Shown here piece after piece: positions 4,669-22,520 of a stretch of DNA of 22,520 nucleotides; within the stretch, counting starts at the first letter, position 1; each line of letters begins with the position of its first letter. Origin of the DNA: a virus; the IMG/VR virus record IMGVR_UViG_3300036901_000143, positions 1 to 22,520 of that record. One strand, 5' to 3'. The notes under the pieces are model-generated. The model saw nothing but the letters and a program-made list of their open reading frames with translations, made no database searches and was not told the DNA's origin. A program made the position numbers and the translations under genes.

Positions 4669-5778
4669 ATGACTTCTACTAGGCAAAGAGCGATGGAGTC
4701 ACGCGACGTAAGCTGCGACACCGGCAGTCGTGAATCGCCGACGCAGCTCGTGCGGCAGATTTTGAGACACCGTGACCCTGTCTCCCAACCAGCCAACGGC
4801 GAGGAAGACATCGCGGCGACCGTGTCGGTCATGCTCCGCGTACAGCCCCCTTCAAAGGCCTTATTGATCGTTGATGCAGAGCTTTGTGAACGACTCCGTC
4901 TCGCGCTCCAAGAGGCGGGCTTTGAGGTTACGATCGCACCTACCAAGGATCGAGCTATCGACGCCTTGGCATCTCACCACCACACTTTGGCGGTGACTGA
5001 TCGTCTTGAGTTTGTACGGAGCTTACGCGCACTCGGAACATCGCGGGTGTTGCAGATTATTCAGATCACCAGCGGTCTCGACGGAGAACTCGAAGCGGCG
5101 CTTAGCTGCGGCGCAGATGAGTGCCTTAGCGGCAAAGCGCCTGACATGCTCCTTCAGGCGCGATTCTCGGCGGCGCGGCGGATGAGTGACCTGGAGTCCG
5201 CGCTGCGCGCTACGTTCATTGTCGGCCACCGTCTGGCGACGACGGACCAGTTAACAGGAGTCGCCAACCGTCGATTCTACGCGAAACACTATCCCCGAGA
5301 GATTTCTCGCGCGGCGCGCTATGGGCATGCCGTTTCGGTCGCGATGTGTGACATAGACCACTTCAAGCGCGCCAACGACGAGTACGGCCATGCCGCCGGA
5401 GATATGATCCTGCGGGAATGTGCGCAGCGGATGCAGCAGTGCTTGCACCGAGGTTCGGATTGGATGGCGCGCGTAGGCGGGGATGAATTCGCGGTAGTCT
5501 TTCCGGAGACGGCCATTGACCGGGCGCTCGATATCTGTCGCAAGATGCGCGACGCGGTTTCGAGCACACCGTTTGTCGGCGACGGGATGCAGGTGAGTCT
5601 CACAGCGAGCTTCGGACTGGCTTCGCTCTGGGGTGCACCTAAAGACGCCAAGAGGCTTGCCGAACGCCTGCTCAGTGCTGCCGATCAAGCACTATATCAA
5701 CGCAAGGCGGCGGGCCGAAATGGCGTCACCGCGACGAAATTGCAGTTCGGGTCAGATAACTCGACGCAACCTGCCTGA
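4669..5778 (+). CDS. Diguanylate cyclase, degenerate receiver plus GGDEF
   Basis: A 369-residue protein predicted to make c-di-GMP from two GTP. Residues about 62-170 are a receiver-like domain: D69 in LLIVDAE, possible phospho-acceptor D111 in LAVTD, and K156 after CGADECLSG. One of the usual paired N-terminal acids is replaced by Ala and the MP after the acceptor is missing, so phosphorylation is uncertain. Residues about 185-360 are a GGDEF domain with DIDHFK, intact GGDEF at 270-274, and an intact inhibitory site RGSD (261-264) five residues before it. The enzyme should be active and product-inhibited. The ATG at 4669 has AAGG six bases upstream; GTG 4648 and ATG 4693 are alternatives. 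Confidence 0.88.
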   Translation: MTSTRQRAMESRDVSCDTGSRESPTQLVRQILRHRDPVSQPANGEEDIAATVSVMLRVQPPSKALLIVDAELCERLRLALQEAGFEVTIAPTKDRAIDALASHHHTLAVTDRLEFVRSLRALGTSRVLQIIQITSGLDGELEAALSCGADECLSGKAPDMLLQARFSAARRMSDLESALRATFIVGHRLATTDQLTGVANRRFYAKHYPREISRAARYGHAVSVAMCDIDHFKRANDEYGHAAGDMILRECAQRMQQCLHRGSDWMARVGGDEFAVVFPETAIDRALDICRKMRDAVSSTPFVGDGMQVSLTASFGLASLWGAPKDAKRLAERLLSAADQALYQRKAAGRNGVTATKLQFGSDNSTQPA

Positions 5779-7677: not shown

Positions 7678-8364
7678 CTATCTGAGGCCGAGGCGCCTGG
7701 CAGCCTTCAGCAGCGACGGCGCATGCCACCGGCCGCCGCCAGGGGATTCGATACCCCGCGCGTTGAGAGCTTCGGCCGCCTGACGCAGCGATGCACCGCC
7801 CTTGAGCGCGAACTCGATCTGCGGTTGCAGCGCCTTGATGCGCTCCATGGCGGCCATCTGGTTGGCTTTGGCACCACTGGCTGCGATCTGCCGCACCTGG
7901 CTCTTATTCCGAGCTGACATGCCGAGCTTCGTACCCCGCGCTTTCGCCGCAGCCAGCCCGGCCTTCGTGCGGGCGGAGATCATTCCACGCTCCTTCTCTG
8001 CCAAGGCTGCGTAGAGGTGGAGCACGAACGGATCCGGTTGGCGGCCGAGGTCGGCAACTACGAACTCGACCCGGTGCGTCATCAATCCGGAGATGAAATG
8101 CACGTCCCTCGAGAGGCGATCGAGCTTGGCGACCATGACAGGGGACTTTGTCTGGCGTGCTGCTTTGAGGGCGGCGGCGAGCTGCGGGCGACGGTCCATT
8201 GCATCCGAACCCGATCCCGTCTCGATCTCTTCGTAGACCTGGGTGATATCGAGGCCTTCGGCTTCGGCAAACCGGGCGATCGCTGCCCGCTGTGCTTCCA
8301 GCCCGAGCCCGGACCGACCCTGGGCTGAAGTGCTGACCCGTACATATCCGATTGCTGCTGTCAT
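7678..8364 (-). CDS. Serine recombinase, resolvase/invertase family
   Basis: A 228-residue site-specific recombinase acting on DNA through a serine nucleophile. The N-terminus has IGYVRVST with catalytic Ser11. [12 protein letters not shown] (77-87) carries the conserved arginines, and [16 protein letters not shown] (122-137) matches the long E-helix. The C-terminal part (185-225, [15 protein letters not shown]) is a helix-turn-helix for site binding. The ATG at 8364 follows GGGGA; the longer in-frame start at 8439 has no ribosome binding site. Length is normal for the small-recombinase group. Its target sites were not identified. The family includes phage and plasmid resolvases and DNA invertases, and it may have moved the neighbouring cargo. 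Confidence 0.88.
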
Positions 8365-8448
8365 TTTGAGCGTCCCCGATCTGTATGGGGACAACTTTAG
8401 ACCAGCAATCAGCCTTTGTAAATGCCTCTTGACGCTCATTGAGTCTTA

Positions 8449-10010: not shown

Positions 10011-10229
10011 TCATGCCTCGTAGCCGACACGGCCCAGCGCTTGCCTCTGATCGCGCAGCAGCCCGGCCAATCGACGCATGAATGGCCGATCGCCGCCCTT
10101 GTACGCGTTCCTGGACACCCGCGTCTTACCCTTGGCCGTCACCGGTCCGGTTGATCGAAGCCACGGCCGCCACCGGTGAATCAGCGCTGCCTGTCGAGCC
10201 CGCCGTTCCGCACTCCAACCGCTCCGCAT
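10011..10229 (-). CDS. Small conserved basic protein (RRWRPWxxSTGP family)
   Basis: A 72-residue, Arg-rich protein. The layout of an ERRARQAALI helix, then RWRPWLRSTGP, then KGKTRVSRNA matches a small uncharacterised family I recall from prophages and islands of Burkholderiales and Xanthomonadales. The ATG at 10229 has GGAG seven bases upstream. It overlaps the end of the upstream gene by 104 bases in another frame, an arrangement typical of this pair. Its basic character suggests nucleic-acid contact, but function is unknown. Confidence 0.75.
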   Translation of the reverse strand: MRSGWSAERRARQAALIHRWRPWLRSTGPVTAKGKTRVSRNAYKGGDRPFMRRLAGLLRDQRQALGRVGYEA

Positions 10230-10935
10230 TCTGCTGCTCCAATAGTTTGCTTGGCTCGCTTTCGATTTCCCGCGCGCGCGCGCGCGTGGGTTCGTCGGTC
10301 GCGGGCCCGTTGTTCACTTGCTGCGGGCCGGTGGCGATGTTGGCCTGGCCTGCGCGCACGAAGGTTGACTGGCGGGGATGTTTCAGCTCGTTCAGAGTTT
10401 CGAGCGTCATGCGGCACTGATTCTGCGCCTTCATCGCCATCGAAAATAATCGTTCACTGCGTTGCAGAAATTCCTGATTCAGTACGCGCTGGGCCATATT
10501 GGTGAAAATTGATTGGAGGGCTACCGCCTGGCCCATCAGCATCGCCTCACACTGCCGCATATCTCCGGCATGGACCTGCGCTATGGAATCCTTCAGCCCC
10601 TCGCTCAGCGCCCATAAATTCTGTTCACCGAACGACCCCTTGGCGAACGGCCTCACTACTAACGCAGCGTTGTCGCTAGATTTTATTGTCATTTCGGCGC
10701 GGGCAAATGCCTTCGCCTTCTCGAGCGCCTCAACCGGCGCGGCAAAGGTGGCTATCGCCCGCGCTGGTTGCGATGCGGCGACCGCCGGCGCAGATGTCGG
10801 TAGATCCGATTGCGCACTATGTTCACCGGCGCTGATTGCTCCGGCGCGCGCCGCTGGGCTGCTGCGCGCAATCTCTCCTGCCTTGGACGTTCGGCGAGCT
10901 GTCGCAGCTCCACGCTGCTTTCCCGTCGGTTTCAC
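10126..10935 (-). CDS. Conserved hypothetical protein of the phage cargo pair
   Basis: A 269-residue soluble protein. GTG 10935 was chosen because AGGAGAGG lies ten bases upstream. An in-frame ATG at 10968, which overlaps the spike gene's stop as ATGA, is the alternative. Residues 1-60 are a basic Ala/Ser-rich linker. Residues about 85-195 are helical with SIFTNMAQRVLNQEFLQR and MAMKAQNQCRMTLETL. ANIATGPQQVNNG follows, then a polar tail. The QCRxTLETL and QQVNNG signatures match a family of unknown function often found beside the 72-residue protein downstream. A CG-repeat tract encodes the TRARARE stretch. Confidence 0.75.
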   Translation of the reverse strand: MKPTGKQRGAATARRTSKAGEIARSSPAARAGAISAGEHSAQSDLPTSAPAVAASQPARAIATFAAPVEALEKAKAFARAEMTIKSSDNAALVVRPFAKGSFGEQNLWALSEGLKDSIAQVHAGDMRQCEAMLMGQAVALQSIFTNMAQRVLNQEFLQRSERLFSMAMKAQNQCRMTLETLNELKHPRQSTFVRAGQANIATGPQQVNNGPATDEPTRARAREIESEPSKLLEQQNAERLECGTAGSTGSADSPVAAVASINRTGDGQG

Positions 10936-10964
10936 GGCTTGATGTCCTCTCCTGAGGCTGGCGC

Positions 10965-11573
10965 TCATCCGGTTGGCCCTCCGGTATTGCCGTCGCCAGG
11001 CATGACGCCACCGTGGTCATGCGCGTTCGCGCTGCTCATCACATCGGTGACAAGGTCCGCGCAGGTGACGTTCTGGCTCACGTCCAGCGCTCCGATGACG
11101 TTTATGTCGCCGGTGTGATTCCAAGTATTGGCGGCCGATGTGATCGTGCCGTCGCCGTTGAGTACGACGCTGGCCCCCTGGCCGTCCGACACGGTGAGCT
11201 TGCCGTCGTTGGTGAGCTTCAGGAACTGCCCATTCACATGTACCAGCCAGAACTCGCCCGACGGCACCGTCAGGGGCCGGTCTTGGTTGTTGTAGTGCCT
11301 GGCCTGCACGTACCCAGTGTTGAGCTTGCCATCGATGAAGACGACGGTGACCATCTCGTTAATTGATGGCGGGCAGTACATGCCCCAACCGTTCCCAACC
11401 CAATTCGAATCAATTGGCAACCAGCCTGTGGGGCTGCCGTCCGGCTGCAATGCAACCTTGGCCATGTACCGCGTCGGATCGTAGTTTGTGACGAGCCCGA
11501 TCCGGCTGACCACGGTATGCGCCGCGGCGCGCAGCGCCTGCAGGCGCATGGCATTGTCTAAGACAGCTCTCAC
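10965..11573 (-). CDS. Baseplate spike protein, gpV / Mu gp45-like
   Basis: A 202-residue protein of the contractile-tail puncturing device. Residues about 20-97 fit the OB-fold that caps the hub. Residues about 105-175 are regular short strands (NGQFLKLTNDGKLTV, SVVLNGDGTI) typical of the trimeric beta-helix. The tip has AHDHGG with His185-x-His187, which in P2 gpV and Mu gp45 binds iron at the apex. GTG 11573 overlaps the hub gene's stop as GTGA. In phages, baseplate wedge genes usually follow; here they are absent. Confidence 0.88.
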   Translation of the reverse strand: MRAVLDNAMRLQALRAAAHTVVSRIGLVTNYDPTRYMAKVALQPDGSPTGWLPIDSNWVGNGWGMYCPPSINEMVTVVFIDGKLNTGYVQARHYNNQDRPLTVPSGEFWLVHVNGQFLKLTNDGKLTVSDGQGASVVLNGDGTITSAANTWNHTGDINVIGALDVSQNVTCADLVTDVMSSANAHDHGGVMPGDGNTGGPTG

Positions 11574-12757
11574 GCAGCACCCACGTCCGAGGATTCGACG
11601 GCGAGGTTGGGAGTGAAGTTCTGCGCCTCCACCGTCATCGCGTAGCCTTCCTCGACACTCAGTGTCCTGGTGACGCTGCGCGGGTAGTAAGTCTGATCGT
11701 AGGCGGTGCCGGTGCCGTTCACGTTTATGATCACGCCGCGAGGTGCGAGCACCCCATCGGCCGGAAGCCTCGCAGTCAATTTCATCGCGTGCGAGGTGAT
11801 GAGCTTGTATTGGTTGATCGCGAAGTTTTCCACCGCAACAGTCGACATGTCCGCTGGCAGCCAGTAGGTGTAGAGCGTCGTCGGTCCGTAGGCGGTCGCC
11901 TTTCCCGGCGTGATCGCTTTCGGCGCCGTTGGGTAGTAGCGCGTAACAGACGCCTTATTGGCGTGCCCCGGGCTCATTGCCTTGACCGTGACTCCCTTCA
12001 CGATGGTGAGCGAGCGGCTGAAGGTCAGATCGACAACGCTTGCGGTCGGATAGTCCACGTCCTTGGTCGGCGGCGTCCACGTGATCTGGTACGTATCTGG
12101 ATCGCCGCTCTCGGGCTGAAAGTATAGGCCCTGCTGTTCTACATAGCAGATGAATCCTGCCTGGCGCGCGAGCATCGCCAGCAGATCCCAGTCGCTGCCC
12201 TGCGTCTGGATGAGCTCGACGTCGCCGTTAGGTTGAGTCGTGCCAACTCTGCCCGTGGTCGCCGTGACGACAGGTATCAGATTGTGCTGGCTGGCGAGGT
12301 CGGTCGCGATGTAGCTCGCCGACTGATTCGTATAGTCCCGCGGCAACTTGGCATCGATGAGAGCACCCGTCAGATCGCGCCCGGTGAGCGTTATCGTGCG
12401 CAGCTTCGGGTTGTACTCGATGTCATCGACCCGGCCATAGATGAGCGAGCTCATTTCGCTCGGATCGGGTTTGTCGGGATTCGATACGCGAACGGCCGCC
12501 AGGATCTCTACGAAAGTGTCAGTCGCGATCTCGGAGAACCATGTGGCGTCGTACAAAGCATCCGGGGCAACCATTTGGGTGAGCGCGGTTGCCGAATAGG
12601 TCACACGGAACGTGTCCGCCTCAAAATAGGTATTGTTGGTGACGCTGAAATCGATCCACCCGGGCACGTTGTTGCCGTTGATCTTCACCGCGCCACGCGG
12701 TTGCCTGACAGTGGATCCAGCTGGAGGGTAGTTTATCTGCGCGCTCGAGGCGATCAT
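11570..12757 (-). CDS. Baseplate hub protein, gpD / Mu gp44-like
   Basis: A 395-residue late-control-D-type hub protein that joins the tail tube to the spike. Features include RGAVKINGNNVPGWIDF near the start, YGRVDDIEYNPKLRTITLTG in the middle (about 105-130), and the characteristic QTQGSDWDLLAMLARQAGF followed by YVEQQGLYF (about 180-215). ATG 12757 overlaps the tape measure stop as TGATG, with GGGGGAT just upstream, so the in-frame start at 12781 was not used. Its position between tape measure and spike matches Mu and related myophages. Confidence 0.88.
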   Translation of the reverse strand: MIASSAQINYPPAGSTVRQPRGAVKINGNNVPGWIDFSVTNNTYFEADTFRVTYSATALTQMVAPDALYDATWFSEIATDTFVEILAAVRVSNPDKPDPSEMSSLIYGRVDDIEYNPKLRTITLTGRDLTGALIDAKLPRDYTNQSASYIATDLASQHNLIPVVTATTGRVGTTQPNGDVELIQTQGSDWDLLAMLARQAGFICYVEQQGLYFQPESGDPDTYQITWTPPTKDVDYPTASVVDLTFSRSLTIVKGVTVKAMSPGHANKASVTRYYPTAPKAITPGKATAYGPTTLYTYWLPADMSTVAVENFAINQYKLITSHAMKLTARLPADGVLAPRGVIINVNGTGTAYDQTYYPRSVTRTLSVEEGYAMTVEAQNFTPNLAVESSDVGAA

Positions 12758-14703
12758 CAGAATCCCCCGCCCGCCGGCCACGGTGCCAGGGTGCCATCGA
12801 AGGACATCAGTCCGGTCTGTGGCGCGGCGGAGGCCTTGGCCTGCTGCTGGGTAACCATCGTCGTCAGGCCATTGCGATCAAGTTTGTTGACGACGGTAAC
12901 GTTGATGGGGGCCCGCGCGGCCATCGTAGGCAGGGATTTGAGCCACGCATCAATGAGTTTCGCCTCCGGACTGTTCACCGAGATTATGGGGTTGCGCGGA
13001 TCGGGTTTCGGCCAGGCCGATGGGCCGGTCGGATTGGGCGAGCCAGGTGTATCCCAGCTTCCCGTGGCGCCACCTCCCCACTGTCCGGTCGCGCCGCTGC
13101 GCTGCTTGGGATGCATAAGGTTCGTCAACCATTCCCACTTCTGCTGCATCCAATCGAGCAGCCCACTGACACCCGATCGAATAGCCTCCCAGGCCGCCTT
13201 GAGCTTCGGCCCGATGACATCCCAATGCTTCCAGAGCTCGTAGGCGGCAAACCCGATGAGAGCAATCACGCCGCCGACCACGCCCAGTGGGATCAATGCG
13301 CGGGCGATTATCGGGCCGATGCCTAGGAACTTGATGAGTCCGGCGGTCATCAGCACCTTACCCAGCACGGAGAAGGCGATCGCCACGCCGCCCAGCCCGA
13401 AGACAATCCCATTTGTCAGGTCCGGGTGGTCCTGCATCCATTGCGACACGTTGTCTAGCGTGTCGGCGAACTTGATCATGTACGGAATCAGCCGCGGCAG
13501 GATCTTGAAGCCGATGGTGGCCAGGATGTTCTGCCACTGATTGTGCAACGCCTGCTCGGCGAGCTGCGGATTGGTTTGCAGCAGCTTCTGGTACGTGTCG
13601 TAGCTGTTGCCGCCACTCTCGATGAGCTTGCGATCGCGCTCGAACTGGGGCCTCTTGACAAGCAATGTGTAGAGCGCCCACTGCGCATTCGACTGATTCG
13701 TCATGGCCGAAACCGTCTGCAGCAGACTGAGCTTGTGAGCTGCAGCGTAGCGCTCGATCGCCGGCGCGTACTTCTCCGCCCACTTGAGCGGATTCTCCGA
13801 CTCGAGCTGCGCACCCGCGACGCCCCCGGGTCGAATCTGCCAGGTCCCCGTGGCATTTCTCACGACATCGCTCGGCTTGATGAGGCCCATCTCCTCCCAC
13901 ACTGGAATCGCGGACTTGGGTATCACGCCCTGCACAATCACCTTCGACAGCGCCCTCAGAGCGGTCCCCGCCGTCGAGGTATTGCCCATCATTCCGGAGC
14001 CGGCTTTCACTTCCTGCATCAGCGTCGGCAGGTAGTCGTAGGTAAATTCATCGCTCCAGCTAAGCGCGCTGTTCTTGGCGTATTTGAGGGTCATCAGGTA
14101 ATCGTGAACGTCGAGCGTGCCGCCCATCCCCATGAGCGTGCGGCCCATGAGGTCTGCATTACGCTGCAGCGATGCACCCGACATCAGGCCGCTCGTGCGA
14201 AGGTCAACGGCCTTCACGACCTCGAAGGCGACGTTGTCCTGCGCTTTTCCGGTGAGAGCCTCGAGCGTCGCCTTGATTCGCTGCACTGTCGGCAGGATCC
14301 CGTAGGTCTCATTCAGGCGATCGGGGCCCAGCACGGTGCGCAGCTCTCGGATCGACTTCAAATTGTCGGCCGCGGTGCTGGTAATGACATCCCGCGAAGT
14401 CTTCCAGGCCGCCGCGGTGGCTTCTGCGATGTCCTTCTGCGTCATGCCGGCAGCGTTCATCAGCGACAGCTGGCGGGTGTACTCCTTGCTCGCATCGACG
14501 GACTTCTCCAGGAAGCCGAGGATCCCCGAGCCGATCTTCTCCATGCCGTAGCCGACGGCGACGAGCTTCAGGGCTGAGAGCTTACCCTTGAGATTGTCGG
14601 CGGCTTTGCTGGCCACGAACAGGTCGCCGGCGAGCAGGCGTAGGCCCTGGCTCGCAAGATTTGCGACTGTCAGCTTGATTGCTACAGAATAGTCGAATGA
14701 CAT
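12757..14703 (-). CDS. Tail tape measure protein
   Basis: A 648-residue protein that sets tail length and is ejected with the DNA. The N-terminal 400 residues are largely helical with many Ala/Leu/Lys repeats. A hydrophobic region at about 432-488 (GIVFGLGGVAIAFSVLG, LGVVGGVIALIGFAA) fits the membrane segments usual in tape measures. A Gly/Pro/Trp-rich linker follows at about 535-575. ATG 14703 has GAGGAG eight bases upstream. By the usual 0.15 nm per residue the tail would be about 97 nm. It lies between the chaperones and the hub, as in other phages. Confidence 0.9.
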   Translation of the reverse strand: MSFDYSVAIKLTVANLASQGLRLLAGDLFVASKAADNLKGKLSALKLVAVGYGMEKIGSGILGFLEKSVDASKEYTRQLSLMNAAGMTQKDIAEATAAAWKTSRDVITSTAADNLKSIRELRTVLGPDRLNETYGILPTVQRIKATLEALTGKAQDNVAFEVVKAVDLRTSGLMSGASLQRNADLMGRTLMGMGGTLDVHDYLMTLKYAKNSALSWSDEFTYDYLPTLMQEVKAGSGMMGNTSTAGTALRALSKVIVQGVIPKSAIPVWEEMGLIKPSDVVRNATGTWQIRPGGVAGAQLESENPLKWAEKYAPAIERYAAAHKLSLLQTVSAMTNQSNAQWALYTLLVKRPQFERDRKLIESGGNSYDTYQKLLQTNPQLAEQALHNQWQNILATIGFKILPRLIPYMIKFADTLDNVSQWMQDHPDLTNGIVFGLGGVAIAFSVLGKVLMTAGLIKFLGIGPIIARALIPLGVVGGVIALIGFAAYELWKHWDVIGPKLKAAWEAIRSGVSGLLDWMQQKWEWLTNLMHPKQRSGATGQWGGGATGSWDTPGSPNPTGPSAWPKPDPRNPIISVNSPEAKLIDAWLKSLPTMAARAPINVTVVNKLDRNGLTTMVTQQQAKASAAPQTGLMSFDGTLAPWPAGGGF

Positions 14704-14915
14704 CGTCCTTACTCCTCAGGCGGGCGCACGAATGGGGCGCCGATCATTTCCGCTTCATCCAATACCCGCGCATGCCGCGCCGGGTGTACGGGGCGAGTTC
14801 CCCGAGCTGGCTCGACGTGGCGCTGAAATGGATGCTGTTCTCCTGGCTGATGTTCCTGATCTGGGGTGGCGTCGCGTTCTGGGCATGCGTTGCGCTCCTA
14901 CTGCTACTCACGTGA
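14697..14915 (+). CDS. Candidate small membrane protein, antisense to the tail operon
   Basis: A 72-residue plus-strand ORF in the only sizeable gap of the tail operon. Residues about 40-70 are strongly hydrophobic (WMLFSWLMFLIWGGVAFWAC, then a Leu run), one or two membrane helices, with a basic N-terminal half. Third positions are GC-rich, but the antisense frame shares that property, so codon use does not decide. No ribosome binding site precedes ATG 14697 or the alternative ATG 14772. It could be a small holin-like or moron protein, or chance. A 27-residue hydrophobic run is hard to get from a non-coding strand. Confidence 0.35.
   Translation: MTSSLLLRRAHEWGADHFRFIQYPRMPRRVYGASSPSWLDVALKWMLFSWLMFLIWGGVAFWACVALLLLLT
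14744..14911 (-). CDS. Candidate small phage protein, alternative to the antisense ORF
   Basis: A 55-codon ORF whose GTG at 14911 lies five bases after the stop of the gp10-like gene. It would fill the gap before the tape measure. The peptide is polar, rich in Ser, Gln and Asn, ending RGMRGYWMKRK. It is the reverse strand of the hydrophobic plus-strand ORF with shared third codon positions, so at most one of the two is likely to be real. Operon direction favours this one; composition favours the other. Confidence 0.25.
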   Translation of the reverse strand: MSSSRSATHAQNATPPQIRNISQENSIHFSATSSQLGELAPYTRRGMRGYWMKRK

Positions 14916-14916
14916 C

Positions 14917-15441
14917 CTAAGAATCGCTGGGCTCGCCGCCGATCGGTCCGATACCAGTTTCCTTCGAGAATCGATATCCGAGCCGCTGCCCGCATATGAC
15001 GGCGTGCGCTTCGGCGCCGATCAGCTTCTCGATGGCATCGACATTGCGCAGCAGCGCGGGGCCTACCACCGGGCGCGGCGGCATCTTTGTCGTCCCGAAC
15101 TCGTGGAACTCCATCACCGGATCCGTCGACCCGATGATCGCTTCGTTGTCACCGACGAGCTCGCTGCGAAAGCTCTTCTCAAGATCACCGAACCGCTCGA
15201 GCGGGGCCTCGGCCGGCGCGCCGATGCGCGCTTTCTCGTCTTCGGTGCTTTCCGCCAACGGCTCCCAGGCCGGATAGTCTCCGAGCGCATCCTGGTACTG
15301 GCCGATCTGCTTGCGCATGTCGTCCTTCAGGATCTTCGCTGCCGCAGTGAGCGAATGTCGGTTCGCCACCTCGATATCGGCAACGACGGCTCCCGCCAGG
15401 TGCGTCGCGAGCGCCGACATGCTGTCAAACTCAATCGTCAC
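14917..15441 (-). CDS. HK97 gp10-like tail completion protein
   Basis: A 174-residue protein resembling the HK97 gp10 family, which completes the head-proximal end of the tail. The N-terminal helices (SLTAAAKILKDDMRKQIGQY) and the C-terminal signature EFGTTKMPPRPVVGPALLRN (about 112-131) are typical. GTG 15441 is preceded by GAGGAGGA, and its first bases overlap the stop of the frameshifted chaperone extension (15438-15440). In many phages this gene precedes the tube gene; here it lies between chaperones and tape measure, and no tube gene is present. Confidence 0.8.
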   Translation of the reverse strand: MTIEFDSMSALATHLAGAVVADIEVANRHSLTAAAKILKDDMRKQIGQYQDALGDYPAWEPLAESTEDEKARIGAPAEAPLERFGDLEKSFRSELVGDNEAIIGSTDPVMEFHEFGTTKMPPRPVVGPALLRNVDAIEKLIGAEAHAVICGQRLGYRFSKETGIGPIGGEPSDS

Positions 15442-15994
15442 TTATCCTCCTCGAACTCAAGCGTGTGCCAGTTGAATCTCCGGCCGCTTTCCATTTCAGA
15501 AAACATGATGCACCAGGCCGTGCGTGTGGCATCGTCCACGCCGAAGGCGACGTCGAAGGGTATGCCGTTCTTGATGAGCCACAGCGATGCCCTGATCGAC
15601 GGCGCCTGTGTCAGTTTTTTGCGGTGGTCTGGTCCTCCTGGGCGTTCTGGGCCCCGAAATGCTCCTGCACGCCGGCCATCACCGCATTGATGCCGTCTTC
15701 GTCAAGGCGCTGGATCAGCGCTTCGACTTGTATCTTCGTAAAGGGCACCGACTCCGGCTCCCCATTTATCGCGGTAACATAGATCAGCGGCAATACCATG
15801 CCCATATAAACCCGGTTCTCTGCGCTCTCCTGGAGTGCTTCGATCAGTCGGTATTGCGACAGCACGGTCGGTTTCCTCAGTGTGAACCGTCGGCCGCGCG
15901 CGTCGACGACCTCGAACGTTGCAGCCGCTTTAGCAAGCGCTTGCTGCGTTGGTGTGTTCTCGTGGATGGTCACTTTCGGGGGCTTGTCAGTCAC
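15438..15994 (-). CDS. Tail assembly chaperone, -1 frameshift fusion (G-T type)
   Basis: The product expected if ribosomes slip -1 at 15620-15614. It has the 127 residues of the short chaperone followed by 58 more from the -1 frame (beginning LTQAPSIRASLWLIKNGIPF, ending LEFEEDK), 185 in total. The extension has no start of its own, runs open from the slip site to TGA 15440-15438, and ends exactly at the start of the gp10-like gene. Its content (NGIPFDVAF, then an Asp/Glu/Trp-rich tail) resembles T extensions of other tail chaperones, which recruit the tube subunit to the tape measure. Read codons with a -1 join at base 15614. Confidence 0.8.
15611..15994 (-). CDS. Tail assembly chaperone, short form (G type)
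   Basis: A 127-residue soluble protein, analogous to lambda gpG, that binds the tape measure during tail assembly. GTG 15994 follows AGGAG by seven bases. The sequence has RRFTLRKPTVLSQYRLIEAL (about 35-54), an Ala/Glu-rich helical body and KIQVEALIQRLDEDGINAVM (about 87-106), the usual layout. The terminal codons are GCA AAA AAC TGA, which form the slip site. Most ribosomes should stop here and a few should make the longer fusion. Confidence 0.8.
   Translation of the reverse strand: MTDKPPKVTIHENTPTQQALAKAAATFEVVDARGRRFTLRKPTVLSQYRLIEALQESAENRVYMGMVLPLIYVTAINGEPESVPFTKIQVEALIQRLDEDGINAVMAGVQEHFGAQNAQEDQTTAKN
15614..15620 (-). promoter_or_regulatory. Slippery heptamer A AAA AAC for -1 frameshifting
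   Basis: On the minus strand, the zero frame reads gcA AAA AAC TGA, a canonical X XXY YYZ heptamer immediately before the stop codon. The -1 frame continues open for 58 codons. A GC-rich GGCGCC lies a few bases downstream and could contribute structure. The position, between chaperone and tape measure, is where phages conserve this event. Confidence 0.82.
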
Positions 15995-15997
15995 GAT

Positions 15998-16219
15998 TCA
16001 TCTCCTGGGAAATATGGGAAACAGTTGCGACAGGGCTTCGCGGGCCTTGGGCGAGAACGCAGGGAAGATGCTCTCGAGGACTTCGCGATTCTTCGGTACG
16101 AGCGTCGGGAATAGGCTTCCCACTGCTTGAGTGGCGCGGATGTAGGCGCAAAGGGACCACGGGTCTGCAAGCCTCGTGGCACTGTGATCGAAGAGATCTG
16201 CGCTAGTAATTTGCGTCAT
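15998..16219 (-). CDS. Small phage protein upstream of the chaperones
   Basis: A 73-residue protein. ATG 16219 follows AGGA eight bases upstream, and its stop is three bases from the chaperone's GTG. It is probably helical, with a repeated Phe-Pro pattern (SLFPTLVP, SIFPAFSP, QLFPIFP) spaced about 14 residues apart. Family not recognised. Its position is where a tail tube gene would be expected, but it is far too short for that. Confidence 0.65.
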   Translation of the reverse strand: MTQITSADLFDHSATRLADPWSLCAYIRATQAVGSLFPTLVPKNREVLESIFPAFSPKAREALSQLFPIFPRR

Positions 16220-16249
16220 GTGATTTTCCTGTAAGAGTCTTGCTGGCGT

Positions 16250-16612
16250 TCATTCCGGCCAAAGTTTCAGGTTCGTCTGCAGCTTCTCGAGGTTTTCGAG
16301 CAGCTGCTTCTGTGCCAATTCGGCATATCGAATTTGATCAGCGGCCGCACCTTGCTTCCGCATCATCTGAATGTCGCTCGTGAGATTCACGACGCTGGCG
16401 CGAGCGCTTTTCAGCGGAGCACGCAGCTCCTCCACGCTAGTGGGCGCCGTCGCCGCCGCGGAATCGTGCAGCTTGACCACTTGGTCGAGGACACGGTTGA
16501 TCGCGGAATTGATGCTATGCAGGCCATTTGGCGTCAGCACTTTTGGGATAGTGAGTAGGCCCGCGGCGGTTCTGAAAACGATCGCGCGGTCGGTATTAGC
16601 TATTGGTTGCAT
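16250..16612 (-). CDS. Hypothetical helical phage protein
   Basis: A 120-residue protein. ATG 16612 has CGGAG about six bases upstream. The second half (about 60-120) has heptad-like Leu/Ala/Gln spacing and is a likely coiled coil (RYAELAQKQLLENLEKLQTN). No membrane segment or known domain is seen. It lies at the boundary between the replication genes and the tail genes and may belong to either. Confidence 0.65.
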   Translation of the reverse strand: MQPIANTDRAIVFRTAAGLLTIPKVLTPNGLHSINSAINRVLDQVVKLHDSAAATAPTSVEELRAPLKSARASVVNLTSDIQMMRKQGAAADQIRYAELAQKQLLENLEKLQTNLKLWPE

Positions 16613-16637
16613 GGGTGCTCCGAAAGTTGTCGTGTGA

Positions 16638-17552
16638 TCATTGTTCGTAAGCCTGGTCAGGGATGAAGCGCATCGGCGGGTCGATCGCGCGGTACTTCAG
16701 CTGACGGGAGGGTCGGTCGTAGTGCAGGCGTATGCACCCGATCCAGTTGATATCCCCGCGCTGCTTCCAGATGGTCAGTTCTGCATCCCACTGGCGGTCG
16801 TCGCCGTGTTTGCGCTCGAGCGTCACGACGCTGTCGGCCTGGGCAACCAGATCCTGCGCGCCGCGGATGTCGTACAAGTCCATCGACTGACGGCTGTTGA
16901 GGGTCTTGCGCGGGTGCGCGACCAGGTGGATGTGCACACCGGCGAGGCGCGCGACGCGCGAGATGAGGTTGCCCATCTGGCGCTGGCCTTCGTAGTCGTC
17001 GGCCGCAATCGCCAGGCGCATCAGCGAGTCGATTACTACGTGCGTGATGCCGTACTTTTTCGCCGCGAAGTGCACCAGCCCGAGCAGGCGTTCTGGCGCA
17101 ATCATCTCCGTGCTATCGAAGACGAATAGCCGGTCACACCAAATATCGAGGCAATCCGCGATGAACTGCGAGGAGGGTTCGCGCGTATGCGCGCAGGTAG
17201 CAATAAATTCCCGGAACACTTCGAGGGGCTCCTCCTCGAGGCTGGCGAAGAACACCCGCTGCCCGCTCTTAAGCGCCCAGAGCATCAGCTGGCGCAGGAA
17301 TTGAGTCTTGCCGCTGAACGTCGGCCCGCTCCAAATCGTCGTCTTGCCTGGTAGGAACCTGACGGAGTCATGCACCTCCGGCCACGGCAGTGTCAGTGCA
17401 TTATTTGCCGATGGCGCGAACTGCCGGACGAGGCTCTGCGCGATGTCGCCCGTGCTGGTGAGCAGCCGGGATTCACCATCGGCACCTGCGAGGCCTTCGA
17501 GCCACGCGCCGTCGTCCTTGACGAGGCTGAAGCGGCTGCTATTGAGCTGCAT
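16638..17552 (-). CDS. DnaB-like replicative helicase ATPase
   Basis: A 304-residue RecA-fold ATPase resembling the C-terminal domain of DnaB without its N-terminal primase-interaction domain. Walker A is GPTFSGKT (76-83, Lys82), followed by FASLEEEP with the probable catalytic Glu. Walker B is HVVIDS (171-176). Later motifs are VHIHLVAHPRK (206-216) and DIRGAQDLVAQADSVVTLER (228-247), the arginine-bearing DnaB motif. ATG 17552 has GGGAG five bases upstream; ATG 17564 in frame does not. It overlaps the preceding gene and probably works with the initiator gene two genes upstream to replicate the element. Confidence 0.85.
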   Translation of the reverse strand: MQLNSSRFSLVKDDGAWLEGLAGADGESRLLTSTGDIAQSLVRQFAPSANNALTLPWPEVHDSVRFLPGKTTIWSGPTFSGKTQFLRQLMLWALKSGQRVFFASLEEEPLEVFREFIATCAHTREPSSQFIADCLDIWCDRLFVFDSTEMIAPERLLGLVHFAAKKYGITHVVIDSLMRLAIAADDYEGQRQMGNLISRVARLAGVHIHLVAHPRKTLNSRQSMDLYDIRGAQDLVAQADSVVTLERKHGDDRQWDAELTIWKQRGDINWIGCIRLHYDRPSRQLKYRAIDPPMRFIPDQAYEQ

Positions 17553-17904
17553 ACGGTCTCCCATCGAGCGGATCGTGGGGATGTGGCACAGGCCATTGCC
17601 ACCGGTCGCGCTTCGCAGGATTGCCGACCATCATGCAGAACGGTGCTACCGCCGCGATGCGGACGCACAGCTCCTGGATCCATGCGACGTCCGGTCGATG
17701 GACGGCGACAATGAGCGCAAGGCCCGCGAGCGCCGCAAGCTCGTAGTGCTCGCCGTCGCGGATCAGGCCGACGAAGAATCCGCTCTTGGCCATGTGCTCG
17801 AGGTAGGGCAGCATGGTGGAGAGGACTGCTCCGCCTGCAGGGCGGGTGCCGTTGCGCCGGATCGCCAGCAGCTCGTGCGACCAGTTGCGACGCTCAGTTC
17901 GCAT
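17539..17904 (-). CDS. Hypothetical protein between initiator and helicase
   Basis: A 121-residue protein starting at ATG 17904, 11 bases inside the end of the initiator gene, and ending inside the start of the helicase gene. Residues about 28-90 alternate helical and hydrophobic stretches (GAVLSTMLPYLEHMAKSGFF, ALAGLALIVAVHRP), more like buried helices than membrane spans. The C-terminus is Pro/His-rich. Not recognised. Tight overlaps on both sides indicate a replication-module protein. Longer in-frame starts up to 18141 lie inside the initiator gene and were rejected. Confidence 0.65.
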   Translation of the reverse strand: MRTERRNWSHELLAIRRNGTRPAGGAVLSTMLPYLEHMAKSGFFVGLIRDGEHYELAALAGLALIVAVHRPDVAWIQELCVRIAAVAPFCMMVGNPAKRDRWQWPVPHPHDPLDGRPYAAQ

Positions 17905-18697
17905 AGGGCATTCCCGATGCGGCGCGACCGTGCGGCGCCTCCTGGCTGACTTGGACCCCGGCTGCGTTGCTACGCCGCTTCTGATATCCGAGCCGCGGAG
18001 CGTTCGATATCCACGTGTCGAGCGCCCGGTCCCAGTCGGCGAACTTGTTGTCCCGAGCGTCGTGGTGCGCAGTGAAGGCGTCGAAGAGGGCCTCCGAGTC
18101 GGCGTCTGGAAGCTTGTTCTGGATCCGAGCGCGGCGCTCATCGGTCAGTGTGAAGTCGCCGGGCCTCGGGAGACTTGGCCGCTTCCGGGTCGAAGGGCCA
18201 GTTCGCGTCCGCGAACGGGAGTCTTTTCTTGTGTCTGAGTCTGTGTCTGAGTCTGAGAGCGGGACAGCGCGGGACGCGTCGGGACGCGTCGGGTTATCGC
18301 GGGTAGCAGCCCGGGCGGAGCGCTTACGCTCGGCATCTTGACCACTCGCGGTACGATCGGCGTCATAGGCCGCCTTGCGTGCCTTCTCCCGGTACTTCCC
18401 ATGGTTGACGACTTTCCAACCCCAGTCGCGGTGTTCCGGGTCGATCAGCACCAGGCGGGCGCCGGCCACCTCGGTCGAGCGGCTGTACGCATCCGGTTCG
18501 CAGAACCGCTTCAGGCAGGCCGTCACTTCATCGAGACCAAGACCCGTGACGCTCGCAATGTACGCGGCCGTAACGTCGACCAAACCATGCTTGTCTGCGA
18601 GAGACAGTACGATCGGCCAGAGGCCGATGTCTGGCCACTTGCCGCACAGCGTGCCGGTCGACAACGACTGGAACAGCGGTGTATAGCCGCCGCTCAT
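17894..18697 (-). CDS. Phage replication initiator / helicase-loader-like protein
   Basis: A 267-residue protein. Residues about 5-110 resemble a winged-helix DNA-binding region (CGKWPDIGLWPIVLSLADKH, DVTAAYIASVTGLGLDEV, WGWKVVNHGKYREKARK). Residues about 112-165 are a charged, low-complexity linker containing SDSDTDSDT. Residues about 165-235 resemble the C-terminal domain of phage O or DnaT-type proteins (FTAHHDARDNKFADWDRALD, then W). It likely binds the element's origin and brings in the helicase. ATG 18697 overlaps the previous stop as ATGA. Confidence 0.78.
   Translation of the reverse strand: MSGGYTPLFQSLSTGTLCGKWPDIGLWPIVLSLADKHGLVDVTAAYIASVTGLGLDEVTACLKRFCEPDAYSRSTEVAGARLVLIDPEHRDWGWKVVNHGKYREKARKAAYDADRTASGQDAERKRSARAATRDNPTRPDASRAVPLSDSDTDSDTRKDSRSRTRTGPSTRKRPSLPRPGDFTLTDERRARIQNKLPDADSEALFDAFTAHHDARDNKFADWDRALDTWISNAPRLGYQKRRSNAAGVQVSQEAPHGRAASGMPYAN
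18231..18256. repeat. 12-base tandem repeat inside the initiator gene
   Basis: GTGTCTGAGTCT occurs twice head-to-tail plus two further bases and encodes the SDSDTDSD linker. Just beyond, GGGACGCGTC is also duplicated (18271-18290). Both preserve the frame only when whole or codon-multiple units change. Confidence 0.6.
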
Positions 18698-18885
18698 CGG
18701 TAGCCGCCGGCGCGCAGCTGGTGAAATGCGCTATCAGCAGCAGCCATCGCACGCAGGGCGCGCGCCCACCAGAAGCAGGGGTGGCATAGACCACCGTCAT
18801 CTGGCTGCGGCCGATAGTGCGAGCCGCACTTACGACAATTGGCGATGCGCGCCGCTGTGCGGAATTGCAGGATGTCCGCGCTCAT
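18694..18885 (-). CDS. Small zinc-ribbon protein
   Basis: A 63-residue protein with Cys17-x2-Cys20-x13-Cys34-x2-Cys37, a four-cysteine zinc ribbon. The flanks are basic and aromatic (CHPCFWWARALRAMAAAD). ATG 18885 overlaps the upstream stop as ATGA, and its own end overlaps the initiator start the same way, so three genes are chained. An in-frame start at 19041 lies inside the previous gene and was rejected. Likely a nucleic-acid-binding accessory of the early phage region. Confidence 0.7.
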   Translation of the reverse strand: MSADILQFRTAARIANCRKCGSHYRPQPDDGGLCHPCFWWARALRAMAAADSAFHQLRAGGYR

Positions 18886-19247
18886 GCAGCCACCCGACGC
18901 CGGCGATACGCCGCCTGGCGACAGCGCCCGCTGCAGAACTTGGCACTGAGCCGCGGAGGCGTGAATTCGGCGGAACACTCTGCGCACGGTTTGAGGCCTG
19001 CTGGAGTGGCATTTCGCGTAACGCGGCGCCGCGGTCGCCAAAGTGGATCAGGCGGAAGTCCGTCAGATTGCCGGATGAGACGGGGCGCGGCGTCCGCGAT
19101 CATCGAGGGCGCTGACGCACAGCGCATGCATTTGCGTCCGTGATCGGCGTCGCGGTGTCCGATCAGTTCGCCACCGCACTCGCGACAGCGAGCACTAGGT
19201 TGCGACTTAGCTTGCGGCCGCTGCGTCGAAGGATTTATGATCATCAT
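18882..19247 (-). CDS. Double zinc-finger protein
   Basis: A 121-residue protein with two cysteine clusters: Cys21-x2-Cys24-x15-Cys40-x2-Cys43 and Cys88-x2-Cys91-x13-Cys105-x3-Cys109. The second is followed by a strongly basic tail (RCRQAAYRRRR). It probably binds nucleic acid. ATG 19247 (or 19244) has no good ribosome binding site, and a GTG at 19283 is an alternative that would run into the terminator-like hairpin. The second finger has the same spacing as the protein at 9587-9970. Confidence 0.68.
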   Translation of the reverse strand: MMIINPSTQRPQAKSQPSARCRECGGELIGHRDADHGRKCMRCASAPSMIADAAPRLIRQSDGLPPDPLWRPRRRVTRNATPAGLKPCAECSAEFTPPRLSAKFCSGRCRQAAYRRRRVAA

Positions 19248-19334: not shown

Positions 19335-19589
19335 TTAGGCCGCCGCCTGTCTGGCGCCAATGACCGGTGTCGCCCTGGCGAACTCTCCGGCAAGCGCCGC
19401 TACCTTCCACTTGCGATAGGTGCTCGCCCGCCAGAAATTCTTTCCGCCAATGTTTGCATCGGGTGCAGGGAACGCGCCCCGGGAGATCTGTTTGCGTAGA
19501 CCGCGGTCCGTGAGGTCGCGATCGGCCGTGATGAAGGAAGTCGGCAGCAGCTGGTCATGAATGATGTCAACCGCCTCGGATTCGCTCAT
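19335..19589 (-). CDS. AlpA-like transcriptional regulator / excisionase
   Basis: An 84-residue protein with a single MerR-like helix-turn-helix. TDRGLRKQISRGAFPAPDAN (about 27-46) and IGGKNFWRASTYRKW (about 47-61) match the AlpA layout of helix, turn, G-x-FP-x-P, then a Trp-containing wing. AlpA-type proteins control integrase and excision genes in P4-like elements. ATG 19589 has GGAG seven bases upstream; the longer start at 19664 crosses the dyad at 19605 and was rejected. Divergent from the HEPN gene, it probably autoregulates from the shared 116-base region. Confidence 0.78.
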   Translation of the reverse strand: MSESEAVDIIHDQLLPTSFITADRDLTDRGLRKQISRGAFPAPDANIGGKNFWRASTYRKWKVAALAGEFARATPVIGARQAAA

Positions 19590-19604
19590 AGATTGCTCCA
19601 ATTG

Positions 19605-19626
19605 CGTTCCGGCACTTGTCGGAACG
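19605..19626. promoter_or_regulatory. 22-base near-perfect palindrome (candidate operator)
   Basis: CGTTCCG and CGGAACG flank GCACTTGT. Reading inward, TTCCGGCA pairs with TGTCGGAA except for one position, so the dyad is nearly complete. It lies 16 bases upstream of the AlpA-like start, in the divergent region, a place expected for a repressor or AlpA site. Confidence 0.55.
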
Positions 19627-19656
19627 TCTATGGAGGCAGAACATTCCTTAGTTCGA

Positions 19657-19686
19657 TGTGCCAATCAAAGGGGATTCATTGGCACA
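19657..19686. promoter_or_regulatory. Nine-base inverted repeat before the HEPN gene
   Basis: TGTGCCAAT and ATTGGCACA form a perfect inverted repeat around a 12-base spacer. It ends a few bases before the GAGGAG ribosome binding site of the HEPN gene, so it may be an operator or an RNA hairpin controlling its translation. Confidence 0.55.
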
Positions 19687-19705
19687 GCAGAGAGGAGTTG
19701 GGCGA

Positions 19706-20449
19706 ATGCCATCAGATGTGCGGGATTTCAGCGATAAAGACATCACGCGTCTTCGAGCAATGGTTCGAGCGGCGCACCAGGATTTCGATCAGACGGCGGC
19801 GTTCCATGAGGCGTGGCGCCCGACAGCTTTCGACGAGCAGCTTCATGCGCGCATGGAAACATCGTTTGCGACGCAAACCTTCAAGGTCATACGGGTTGCA
19901 CTTCGACGTGAAGTGCTGTTGGGGCTGGTCCGACTCTGGGATACGCGAAGTGACACGCTCAAGATGGAATTCGTAGCTGCGCAACTTCGGAGGAGCGCCG
20001 TTCTCGATGCGTTGGCCGGCGATCGAGCGGACAAGACCGCATTGCCTATAGTTGATCCGATGAGACGGGAGCTCGGCCGGATTGCCAGCGAGGCGCTGAC
20101 AATTATTGAGAAATACTCCAAGGATGGAGAGCGACACGCCGTGCTCGAGGTGGTCCGCAAATTGCGGCACACGCGGCTCGCCCACCGGGAGGCCGTGAGC
20201 GAACTCTCCGCCGCTTCCGCGATCGTTCCCGACGCGTCAGCGGAGGAGATCGAGGAACTCTATCAAGACAGCGCGAATCTAGTGCGTCTGCTGCTCAAGG
20301 TTGCCGTTGGCCATGCGTATGACCCGCGCGAAGCCGCTGGAGTGTTTAGCCAATATGCGCAGGCCTTTTGGGCTTCGGTGCGGGGTGAACGGACGGAGGG
20401 TCATCCAAATTATGCGCGGAAGCTCAGTTCGCGCGACATCGAAGGTTAG
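19706..20449 (+). CDS. HEPN/AbiU2-like putative abortive-infection protein
   Basis: A 247-residue helical protein, the only clear plus-strand gene in the phage block. Residues about 25-165 resemble the AbiU2 group of HEPN proteins: a long helix pair with TFKVIRVALRREVLLGLVRL (59-78), WDTRSDTLKM, then RKLRHTRLAHRE (151-162). In that last stretch, Arg154 and His160 fit the R-x4-6-H HEPN ribonuclease motif. HEPN proteins cut RNA and often block phage growth by stopping the infected cell. ATG 19706 follows GAGGAG; the GTG at 19658 in frame was rejected. Its stop overlaps the stop of the HTH gene tail-to-tail. Family call from pattern recognition only. Confidence 0.7.
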   Translation: MPSDVRDFSDKDITRLRAMVRAAHQDFDQTAAFHEAWRPTAFDEQLHARMETSFATQTFKVIRVALRREVLLGLVRLWDTRSDTLKMEFVAAQLRRSAVLDALAGDRADKTALPIVDPMRRELGRIASEALTIIEKYSKDGERHAVLEVVRKLRHTRLAHREAVSELSAASAIVPDASAEEIEELYQDSANLVRLLLKVAVGHAYDPREAAGVFSQYAQAFWASVRGERTEGHPNYARKLSSRDIEG

Positions 20450-21126
20450 TGGCCGAATTTGATTCGCTGCTGGCGCCGCTTGGCCTTTTTGTTCTTGCGG
20501 CCAGAGTTGGGGAGCTGGCGATTTTTGAATGCCAGCGTGGCCTCGGCGCTCCGAGCCGACTGTGCGATTTGCTTTGCCCACTTCGCCTGCCAGGGCTCTC
20601 GCTTTTTCAGCTGTTGCCAGTATCTGGTGACGGTCCGGGTCCCAATCCCCATGACCTTGGCGATCTGCGATGCTATCGTCCGTTCAGATTGGTAAGCCGC
20701 GGTCTTTTGCATGTGGTTGTATGCGGCGATCCAGTGCTTAACGGCTGTCGATTGCTGTCGTCTGAGTTCAGTGTCATACGGAGACGAGCCTCGCCCAATG
20801 CGCAGGGCGGCTCGAATCTTGGATAGCTGGTCATCTTTGGCCCCTGGCTTATCGCAAAATGACAGCACCGCGCGGACGACCTGATCCAGGTCGGCCAGTA
20901 CGTGAAGCATGATCAGTTCGGCGCGAGCGGCGTTGCTCTCCGCTGTCGGAAGGCCTGCTTCCATCTTGGCAATAAGTCCCCTGCAACGGGCCACCGTACT
21001 CCGTCGGTCGGCCTTTCGTCGCTGCAGATATGCGCGGAACAGGTCAATGCCGCCCCCGTGCGTACGATATCTCGTGAGCGCTGCGGCGCCGAATGGTCGA
21101 CGCAGCCGTGGCGCGCGCGCAGTCAC
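20446..21126 (-). CDS. Helix-turn-helix protein coupled to the integrase
   Basis: A 226-residue protein. GTG 21126 overlaps the integrase stop as GTGA; the longer ORF start at 21363 lies inside the integrase gene and was rejected. Residues about 26-110 are helical (EAGLPTAESNAARAELIMLH). Residues about 148-172 (RTIASQIAKVMGIGTRTVTR) are a helix-turn-helix of the MarR/Trp-repressor-like type. The last 30 residues are very basic (RKNKKAKRRQQRIK). It may regulate the element or assist recombination as a DNA-binding factor. Family not recognised. Confidence 0.7.
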   Translation of the reverse strand: MTARAPRLRRPFGAAALTRYRTHGGGIDLFRAYLQRRKADRRSTVARCRGLIAKMEAGLPTAESNAARAELIMLHVLADLDQVVRAVLSFCDKPGAKDDQLSKIRAALRIGRGSSPYDTELRRQQSTAVKHWIAAYNHMQKTAAYQSERTIASQIAKVMGIGTRTVTRYWQQLKKREPWQAKWAKQIAQSARSAEATLAFKNRQLPNSGRKNKKAKRRQQRIKFGH

Positions 21127-22520
21127 GCGCTGGCCGCTTTCGGCATTGGCACGATGTTGGATTTCTTGCCGGTGATGATATCGGTTACGTGCGCGCCCCA
21201 CCGTTCGAGCGCCACGCGCTTTTCCGCTAGATAGTCGTGCCGGTCGTATACCTCGGCGATGTCGCCGGTGGAATGATTGAGGACCTTCTCGACGTGCAGC
21301 CGAGGAGTGCCGAGCATTGTCATGAAGCTCGCCGCGGTGCGGCGCAAATCGTGCGGGGTCCAATGCGGGATACCGAAGTGCTCCTCATTGACTCGCACGG
21401 CATGCGATAGGGCGCTTTCGGAATACGGGAGATTCTTCGTCGGATCCACGCGAGTCGGCAGTACATAGATACCGTCGGCTGTCAGCGACTGCAATTGCTC
21501 GAGCAGCGATACGGCCAGCGGGCTAAGCGGCACATGGTGCGGCTGCGGTGTGCGCTTCGTATGGCTGCTCTTGAGCAGTTCGACCGGGATTGTCCAGAGC
21601 TTTGCGGCCAGATCAAAGTGAGCCCATTTGGCGAGAGTCAGTTCTCCGCGGCGCTGACCGGTCACGAGTAACAGCTTGAGCGCCAGTCGGGTAGAGGCTG
21701 CCATGTCGGCATCGGCCAGCTTGTGCCAGAAAGTCTTGATCTCATCAGAATTCAAGATGCGCTCGCGGCCGCGTTCAATGCCGCCCGGGCGCTCGACACC
21801 TACCATGGGAGACGCCGGCAACAGATCTTTGGCGCAGGCCCACCGAAAGAGCTGCACTAGCAGCGCTTGTGTGCGATTGGCGGCCACAGGCGCGCCGCGG
21901 TCCACGATCTCATCCAACAGCGCGATTAACTGGCGCTTGGTCAGATCGCGTGCGTTGAGATGCCCGTACTTCGAGATCAGTGTCGGCTTCTTTGTCCTGC
22001 TGCTTCTCAGGGGCTCTCGCGCGCCCTGGTCGCTGTAGCCGAGCAGGGAGTCAGCCTCATGGGGGCGCTTGCGGGCCTTCGTCTTGTTCTTTTCATCCCT
22101 CACCCACGCGCCGCGGGCCTCATCCCAGCGCTCGGCTCGGATCCTACGATGGAGGAATTGCTCGACCAGGGCGGTTACCGTACCGGTGCCGGCGCGTTCG
22201 TCTCTTGCGCGCTGGGCGACGTCTTTGCGCTTGCGACGCTCCTCTTTCGGATCCAGGCCGAGCTCGCGCTCGCGCTGTGCTTGATGATGCTGGTCGAAGG
22301 CGTCAGCCAGAGACAGGCCGCCGGCGCCGAACTTCCCAAGCACCAGGTAGTCTCGGCCGCGGCCACCGGGCAGCGTGTACCTGTATACGAAGCTCGTGGC
22401 GCCGCTCGGGTAGATCCGCACCATCAGACCCTCGCGGCCATCCACGGTCTCCTCGTAGCGCTTCTTGGGCCGATTACGGGGCTCTTTGCGTGTCTGGAGC
22501 CACGTCGTCGTGATCTTCAT
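21123..22520 (-). CDS. int: P4-type tyrosine integrase
   Basis: A 465-residue site-specific recombinase that integrates the element, usually at a tRNA gene end. Residues about 20-95 are the DUF4102-like arm-binding domain (GLMVRIYPSG, RDYLVLGKFG). Residues about 110-235 are the core-binding domain. The catalytic domain follows: Arg290 in TGQRRGEL, Lys317 in LLKSSHTKR, His390-x-x-Arg393 in HDLRRT, His416 in LNHST, and nucleophile Tyr425 in AEVYDRHDY. All key residues are intact. It starts at ATG 22520, the window edge, so its promoter and the expected attachment site lie outside. It overlaps the HTH gene by four bases. Confidence 0.93.
   Translation of the reverse strand: MKITTTWLQTRKEPRNRPKKRYEETVDGREGLMVRIYPSGATSFVYRYTLPGGRGRDYLVLGKFGAGGLSLADAFDQHHQAQRERELGLDPKEERRKRKDVAQRARDERAGTGTVTALVEQFLHRRIRAERWDEARGAWVRDEKNKTKARKRPHEADSLLGYSDQGAREPLRSSRTKKPTLISKYGHLNARDLTKRQLIALLDEIVDRGAPVAANRTQALLVQLFRWACAKDLLPASPMVGVERPGGIERGRERILNSDEIKTFWHKLADADMAASTRLALKLLLVTGQRRGELTLAKWAHFDLAAKLWTIPVELLKSSHTKRTPQPHHVPLSPLAVSLLEQLQSLTADGIYVLPTRVDPTKNLPYSESALSHAVRVNEEHFGIPHWTPHDLRRTAASFMTMLGTPRLHVEKVLNHSTGDIAEVYDRHDYLAEKRVALERWGAHVTDIITGKKSNIVPMPKAASA

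Follow-up and report, generated by a model that had tools for sequence, protein, structure and literature searches.

The window analyzed here, the whole 22,520-base stretch of IMG/VR virus record IMGVR_UViG_3300036901_000143, contains an integrated element in which replication genes run directly into the inner part of a contractile tail. On the minus strand, a P4-type tyrosine integrase is followed by p20446, a small regulator, a CxxC protein, a replication initiator candidate, a helicase and then the tail core, which consists of the assembly chaperone G, its extension GT (reached by a -1 frameshift), a gpS/gp10-like tail completion protein (gp10), the tape measure protein (TMP), the baseplate hub and the spike. 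Downstream of the spike lie p10126, p8449 and a serine recombinase on the same strand. From the integrase to at least this resolvase, the element would span about 15 kb or more. The window edges coincide with gene ends, a pattern that suggests a trimmed provirus. The features are given below (numbers beginning with L are our handles for other sequences; ORF, open reading frame; HMM, hidden Markov model; IS, insertion sequence).

21123–22520, minus strand: P4-type tyrosine integrase at the host junction (PF00589, 4e-19; Arm-DNA-bind_3, PF13356, 1e-11)
20446–21363, minus strand: p20446, weak helix-turn-helix matches; the listed TTG start overlaps the integrase and the real start is probably later
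19658–20449, plus strand: AbiU2-like HEPN abortive-infection protein, cargo (PF18734, 3e-14, above cut-off)
19335–19664, minus strand: AlpA/excisionase-like small regulator, labelled from sequence pattern and position
18694–19041, minus strand: small CxxC protein, no Pfam or PHROG match; the same-position ORF of L166 likewise has CxxC motifs
17894–18697, minus strand: replication initiator candidate, no Pfam or PHROG match; 76% identity over 152 aa to the L166 counterpart
16638–17564, minus strand: DnaB/RepA-like replicative helicase (phrog_239, 3e-35; PF13481, 1e-10)
16250–16612, minus strand: p16250, small protein with no function assigned
15998–16219, minus strand: p15998, small ORF before the chaperone, with relatives in the window's own population only
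15611–15994, minus strand: tail assembly chaperone G (phrog_20383, 6e-39), at the same place before GT, gp10 and TMP in complete phages
15438–15620, minus strand: chaperone GT, the -1 frame extension of G, with slippery A AAA AAC at 15614–15620
14917–15441, minus strand: gpS/gp10-like tail completion protein (phrog_26, 2e-10; PF05069, 1e-4, just under cut-off)
14679–14915, plus strand: small antisense membrane ORF in the gp10-TMP gap; an HMM locates it at this position throughout the phage family
12757–14703, minus strand: TMP, 648 aa (phrog_28, 3e-23; 61% to phage L003)
12986–12992: 7-bp target duplication of an IS in the TMP of other copies, uninterrupted in the window
11570–12781, minus strand: baseplate hub (phrog_52, 2e-20; profile matches to the solved hubs/VgrG 3cdd and 9gtr)
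10965–11573, minus strand: spike with OB domain and apex motif (PF04717, 9e-9; PF18946, 1e-6)
10126–10968, minus strand: p10126 (QVNNG protein), common to L119 and L116 and also found on two small Polaromonas plasmids
10011–10229, minus strand: 72-aa companion of p10126, with relatives in L119 and L116 (the latter by eye)
7678–8439, minus strand: serine recombinase (resolvase; PF00239, 2e-26; 59% to L146, 56% to L119)

A preliminary description of this DNA had already reported replication genes running into a tail core without head, tube, sheath or lysis genes, and both the gene calls and searches with L003 proteins bear this out. Its naming of the helicase, gp10-like protein, tape measure, hub and spike agrees with the PHROG and Pfam matches, as does that of the P4-type integrase with PF00589 and PF13356. 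The chaperone pair consists of G and GT, and the ORF at 15998–16219 is not a recognised chaperone. The AlpA label of the regulator is unconfirmed, with no Pfam match; this protein is 39% identical to that encoded at the same position in L166. The tight, intact spacing that had been described holds at most junctions. Helicase and p16250 are 25 bp apart, p16250 and p15998 30 bp, and p15998 and G 3 bp, while GT/gp10, hub/spike and spike/p10126 each share 4 bp and TMP/hub share 25 bp; the ORFs are intact, and the frameshift heptamer A AAA AAC opens straight into GT. It does not hold for the gaps between initiator and helicase (329 bp) and between gp10 and TMP (213 bp), the latter housing the antisense membrane ORF. 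This ORF encodes a single predicted membrane helix, occurs family-wide (we therefore rejected it as a satellite marker) and may be an exclusion or immunity protein. The AbiU2-like HEPN gene, which has no PADLOC match, is part of the element and is oriented divergently to the regulator gene.

Missing modules and host context

The 21 L003 phage proteins searched against the window gave clear matches for G, gp10, TMP, hub and spike only (the L003 hub had an additional chance-level match, E 0.006); no clear relative of portal, capsid, sheath, tube, LysM, gp25, gpJ, gpI or fibre was found. The same element is also present in the Gammaproteobacteria metagenome-assembled genome (MAG) palsa_1209 (PKWJ01, G003), split over two contigs, which allowed us to look past both edges of the window. 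On the integrase side (contig C14), a host major facilitator superfamily gene follows after 286 bp and is succeeded by leucine and isoleucine/valine synthesis genes. Beyond position 1 there are scraps resembling an integrative and conjugative element (ICE; repressor-like, pilin-like and SSB-like), followed by host genes (names by eye on both sides). Across 80 kb of host contig ends, which include both halves of the element, HMM searches found no tested structural family besides the element's own. The missing genes, whose presence beyond the window had been named as a refutation, thus do not adjoin the block, and we rejected the idea of head genes just outside it, as host or mobile-element DNA lies on both sides.

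A complete helper in the host MAG was likewise rejected: no TerL (large terminase subunit) was found in the MAG, and its one match to the sheath family phrog_23 is an isolated chromosomal gene with a counterpart in a second genome, G004. These sheath-like genes (G003 C23:80568–82157, L266 and L275; G004 C38:157144–158400) lie among chromosomal genes, with no tail genes seen nearby. Beside the element, a GAF-EAL gene (2648–4072, plus strand) and a GGDEF gene (4648–5778, plus strand), both cyclic di-GMP genes, adjoin each other and may be cargo or host genes.

Head-less relatives and complete phages

When IMG/VR was scanned with alignments of TMP and gp10, many complete contractile phages of one family emerged, whose genes run portal, scaffold, capsid and others, then sheath, tube, G, GT, gp10, TMP, LysM, hub, spike, gp25, J, I and fibre. 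Judged by sequence, the tail core of the window stems from this well-populated family. Complete phages of the L003 type share with the window the order G-GT-gp10-TMP-hub-spike but, unlike it, have their own portal, capsid, sheath, tube, LysM, gp25, J, I and fibre. The parts of the window form a mosaic, with a TMP 61% identical to that of L003, a gp10 61% identical to that of L037 and 64% to that of L013, and a hub 46% identical to that of L040. Carriers are few in class- or order-wide genome searches (TMP in two of 396, one of them weak; gp10 in six of 369, one of them strong, and in two of 396, namely G003 and G004). The finding of a complete phage among close relatives had also been proposed as a refutation, and this is partly what we see: the tail module also occurs in complete phages, with 37–61% identity, but none is a near copy differing by two deletions.

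When identical gp10 loci were counted once, 135 distinct gp10 remained, comprising 112 with a sheath, nine head-less ones and 14 on unlabelled contigs. At least eight head-less lineages exist besides the window's population, several of them with replication genes adjoining the same core, and the head-less order, whose recurrence had been suggested as a check, is thus found in different lineages. L166 and L091 share the order initiator, helicase, small genes, G, GT, gp10, TMP and hub; L091 also has the spike, while in L166 (full DnaB, hub 43% identical) no spike was found. Variants are L048 (integrase, initiator, DnaB, TMP, G, GT and gp10), L146 and L218 (both TerL, G, GT, gp10 and TMP), L119 (integrase, p10126, resolvase, TMP and gp10, on a contig that also bears a TerL end), L013 from another MAG of the same order (with a DUF6651 gene ahead of G, GT, gp10 and TMP), and L116 (initiator-like ORF, DnaB, tube, p10126 and gp10, without sheath). 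TerL is therefore present on the contigs of three head-less variants. None of 20 further ORFs from L091, L166 and L048 matched a PHROG for head or packaging proteins, with the other ORFs of the variants covered in part. In the gp10 tree, the head-less labels (nine among 121 labelled) need at least five changes compared with 8.8 in shuffles, which points to several origins of the head-less state with some clustering.

The retained subset of tail genes is not arbitrary. A LysM gene lies between TMP and hub in 84 of 84 complete phages and in none of the three head-less elements with both TMP and hub, while gp25 or gpJ follows the hub in all 58 complete phages and again in none of three. These two contrasts are not circular; that of sheath and tube upstream (90/90 versus 0/8) is circular for the sheath, because the label ‘complete’ rests on it. 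The slippery heptamer opening into GT is kept in seven of seven head-less elements with G and in 108 of 111 complete phages, and the same frameshift rule fires in only 0–4 of 66–131 sequences in nine other genes used as controls.

Among gp10 loci with 10-kb flanks, p10126 and the resolvase occur only in sheath-less contigs. We rejected p10126 as an exclusively head-less gene, since relatives are also located on the Polaromonas plasmids NZ_MG869627 and NZ_MG869621; none was found in 50,697 phage records. The initiator was rejected as an element marker as well: among 22 contigs encoding it, only the window's population and L166 contain the tail core, and the others are other phages or without assignment, four with TerL. 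In further phage contigs (L250, L255 and L256), too, a member of the initiator family lies close to a related helicase. A small protein ending in a GxYxIxxGLAxKRP-like motif, possibly a head-tail joining protein, is encoded in L146 (8126–8572), L218 (2104–2436) and L091 (12279–12845).

A satellite, a remnant or a defence island

The window probably represents an integrative, capsid-less phage satellite that works through chimeric tails and is distinct from the phage-inducible chromosomal island-like elements (PLEs) of Vibrio. It is a small integrative element that lacks the virion genes it would need, as expected of a satellite. The P4-type integrase would insert the element, and its own initiator and helicase would replicate it. 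During growth of a contractile-tailed helper, the element would provide the chaperones G and GT, tail completion protein, TMP, hub and spike, which would combine with the tube, sheath, baseplate wedge and fibres of the helper to give chimeric tails. Such tails would be attached to helper capsids carrying the satellite genome, so that packaging and transfer would depend on the helper.

Several observations weigh against this reading. The TMP carries an IS in three of the six population contigs covering the site (L005/L008, L006 and the MAG, with the window, L002 and L004 uninterrupted). Its target duplication is the 7 bp ACCCCAT, and the parts seen (positions 1–127 in L005, 1–55 in L006 and the end in L011) have subterminal 21-bp repeats; its terminal repeats suggest an IS21-like element, and no match to the repeat was found elsewhere in the MAG. 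The window shows neither an att pair (the best direct repeat, of 13 bp, is unconvincing) nor any recognised gene for a terminase, capsid remodelling or packaging, and no helper is seen in the host MAG, where no TerL was found and the one sheath match is the lone chromosomal gene. All relatives were found through tail probes and are mostly fragments, and the subset of tail genes varies among them: some are without spike or hub, and L116 has a tube but no TMP was found. In favour of the satellite, Nei-Gojobori dN/dS ratios of the window indicate constraint, both against L013 (gp10 0.13, TMP 0.20 and chaperone G 0.15) and against L166 (hub 0.31 and gp10 0.45), but dS is close to saturation and part of this history may have taken place in complete phages, and the ratios therefore support the reading without proving it.

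The preliminary description had left the choice between a satellite, a mechanism it called speculative, and a cleanly reduced prophage. Under the latter, clean deletions would have stripped a chimeric myophage of its genes for head, tube, sheath, wedge, lysis and packaging, leaving the tail core as a remnant of no present use. The IS in the TMP of half of the population's contigs, the nesting of the tail module among complete phages in the gp10 tree and the adjacent ICE scraps, a sign of a graveyard region, all speak for such decay. It fits poorly with the same layout in several divergent lineages, the loss of LysM in three of three elements with TMP and hub, the frameshift signal kept in seven of seven, and a window copy with low dN/dS and no broken genes. 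Recurrence, intact genes and constraint together favour a satellite over simple decay, and the mechanism has an experimental precedent in PLEs (PMC12987554); we regard decay as unlikely, though it keeps some weight through the interrupted TMP. Still less probable is an island that interferes with phages, in which TMP, hub and chaperones would serve as decoys, poisoning tail assembly in infecting phages, with the AbiU2-like protein as a second defence and no transfer in particles. Such an island would account for the AbiU2-like gene within the element, and tail assembly is a known target of satellite- and prophage-borne defence (PMC11364771; PMC12987554), but a decoy would need no spike, tail completion protein or preserved frameshift pair, and several relatives also encode a terminase. 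We give very little credence to a split or complete phage with head genes elsewhere in the same genome: a draft MAG could miss contigs, but host genes begin 286 bp past the integrase, the tested head and tail families are absent from the 80 kb of contig ends read and no TerL was found in the MAG.

Comparison with known satellites

The integrase, initiator and helicase of PLEs probably differ from those of the window. Like the window, the PLEs of Vibrio cholerae (PLE11, PLE1 and PLE4) encode their own TMP and tail assembly chaperone without tube or sheath, and PLE11 also encodes a hub (PMC12987554, 2026). According to the same paper, PLE11 forms chimeric tails with the tube, sheath, baseplate and fibres of ICP1, deletion of a PLE tmp cuts transduction by 96–99.9%, and tmp is likewise present in PLE-like elements from further Vibrio species as well as some capsid-forming phage-inducible chromosomal islands (cf-PICIs). 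Beyond what the PLEs encode, the window has a spike, a tail completion protein of the gpS/gp10 type and a G/GT pair joined by frameshifting. Its host is probably not a Vibrio with ICP1 as helper, judging from the MAG title palsa_1209 and the habitat. No other paper on satellite tape measures was found in open-access full text, a scope that leaves aside subscription papers and preprints.

The cf-PICIs are likewise satellites with a predicted tmp (PMC12987554, Extended Data Fig. 10), but they carry their own capsid, portal and terminase/packaging genes, none of which was recognised in the window. The AlpA-type regulator of PICIs has a candidate counterpart in the window by pattern and position, with no Pfam match. 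P4-like satellites share the P4-type integrase, the integrative lifestyle and their own replication genes with the window; they differ in that the window carries tail genes, its helicase domain comes without a primase, and none of alpha primase, Sid, Psu and Delta was recognised among the ORFs scanned. The Pseudomonas element AH14b is also a satellite-like prophage (about 17 kb and inducible), in which its authors found no head-neck-tail genes and only a homologue of tail assembly protein I (PMC4936722).

Chances are about even, in our view, that tail-core satellites form a recurrent and so far undescribed class outside Vibrio: capsid-less and integrative, arisen at least five times on different replicons, and equipped with a whole ejection core (frameshifted chaperones, tail completion protein, TMP, hub and spike) and in some cases their own terminase, they would rebuild the inside of the helper's contractile tail and take all outside parts from it. 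If so, replacement of the helper's tape measure and hub, so far shown only in Vibrio PLEs, would be a general and repeatedly arisen satellite strategy. It would delimit the tail parts that a satellite must own (chaperones, completion protein, TMP, and often hub and spike) from those it can steal, and would offer natural pairs for asking which tail parts must match. Routine annotation would take such elements for defective prophages. The chimeric-tail mode itself is already known from PLEs, and by analogy the window fits it with a fuller core, to which a spike and a completion protein belong, and without capsid genes.

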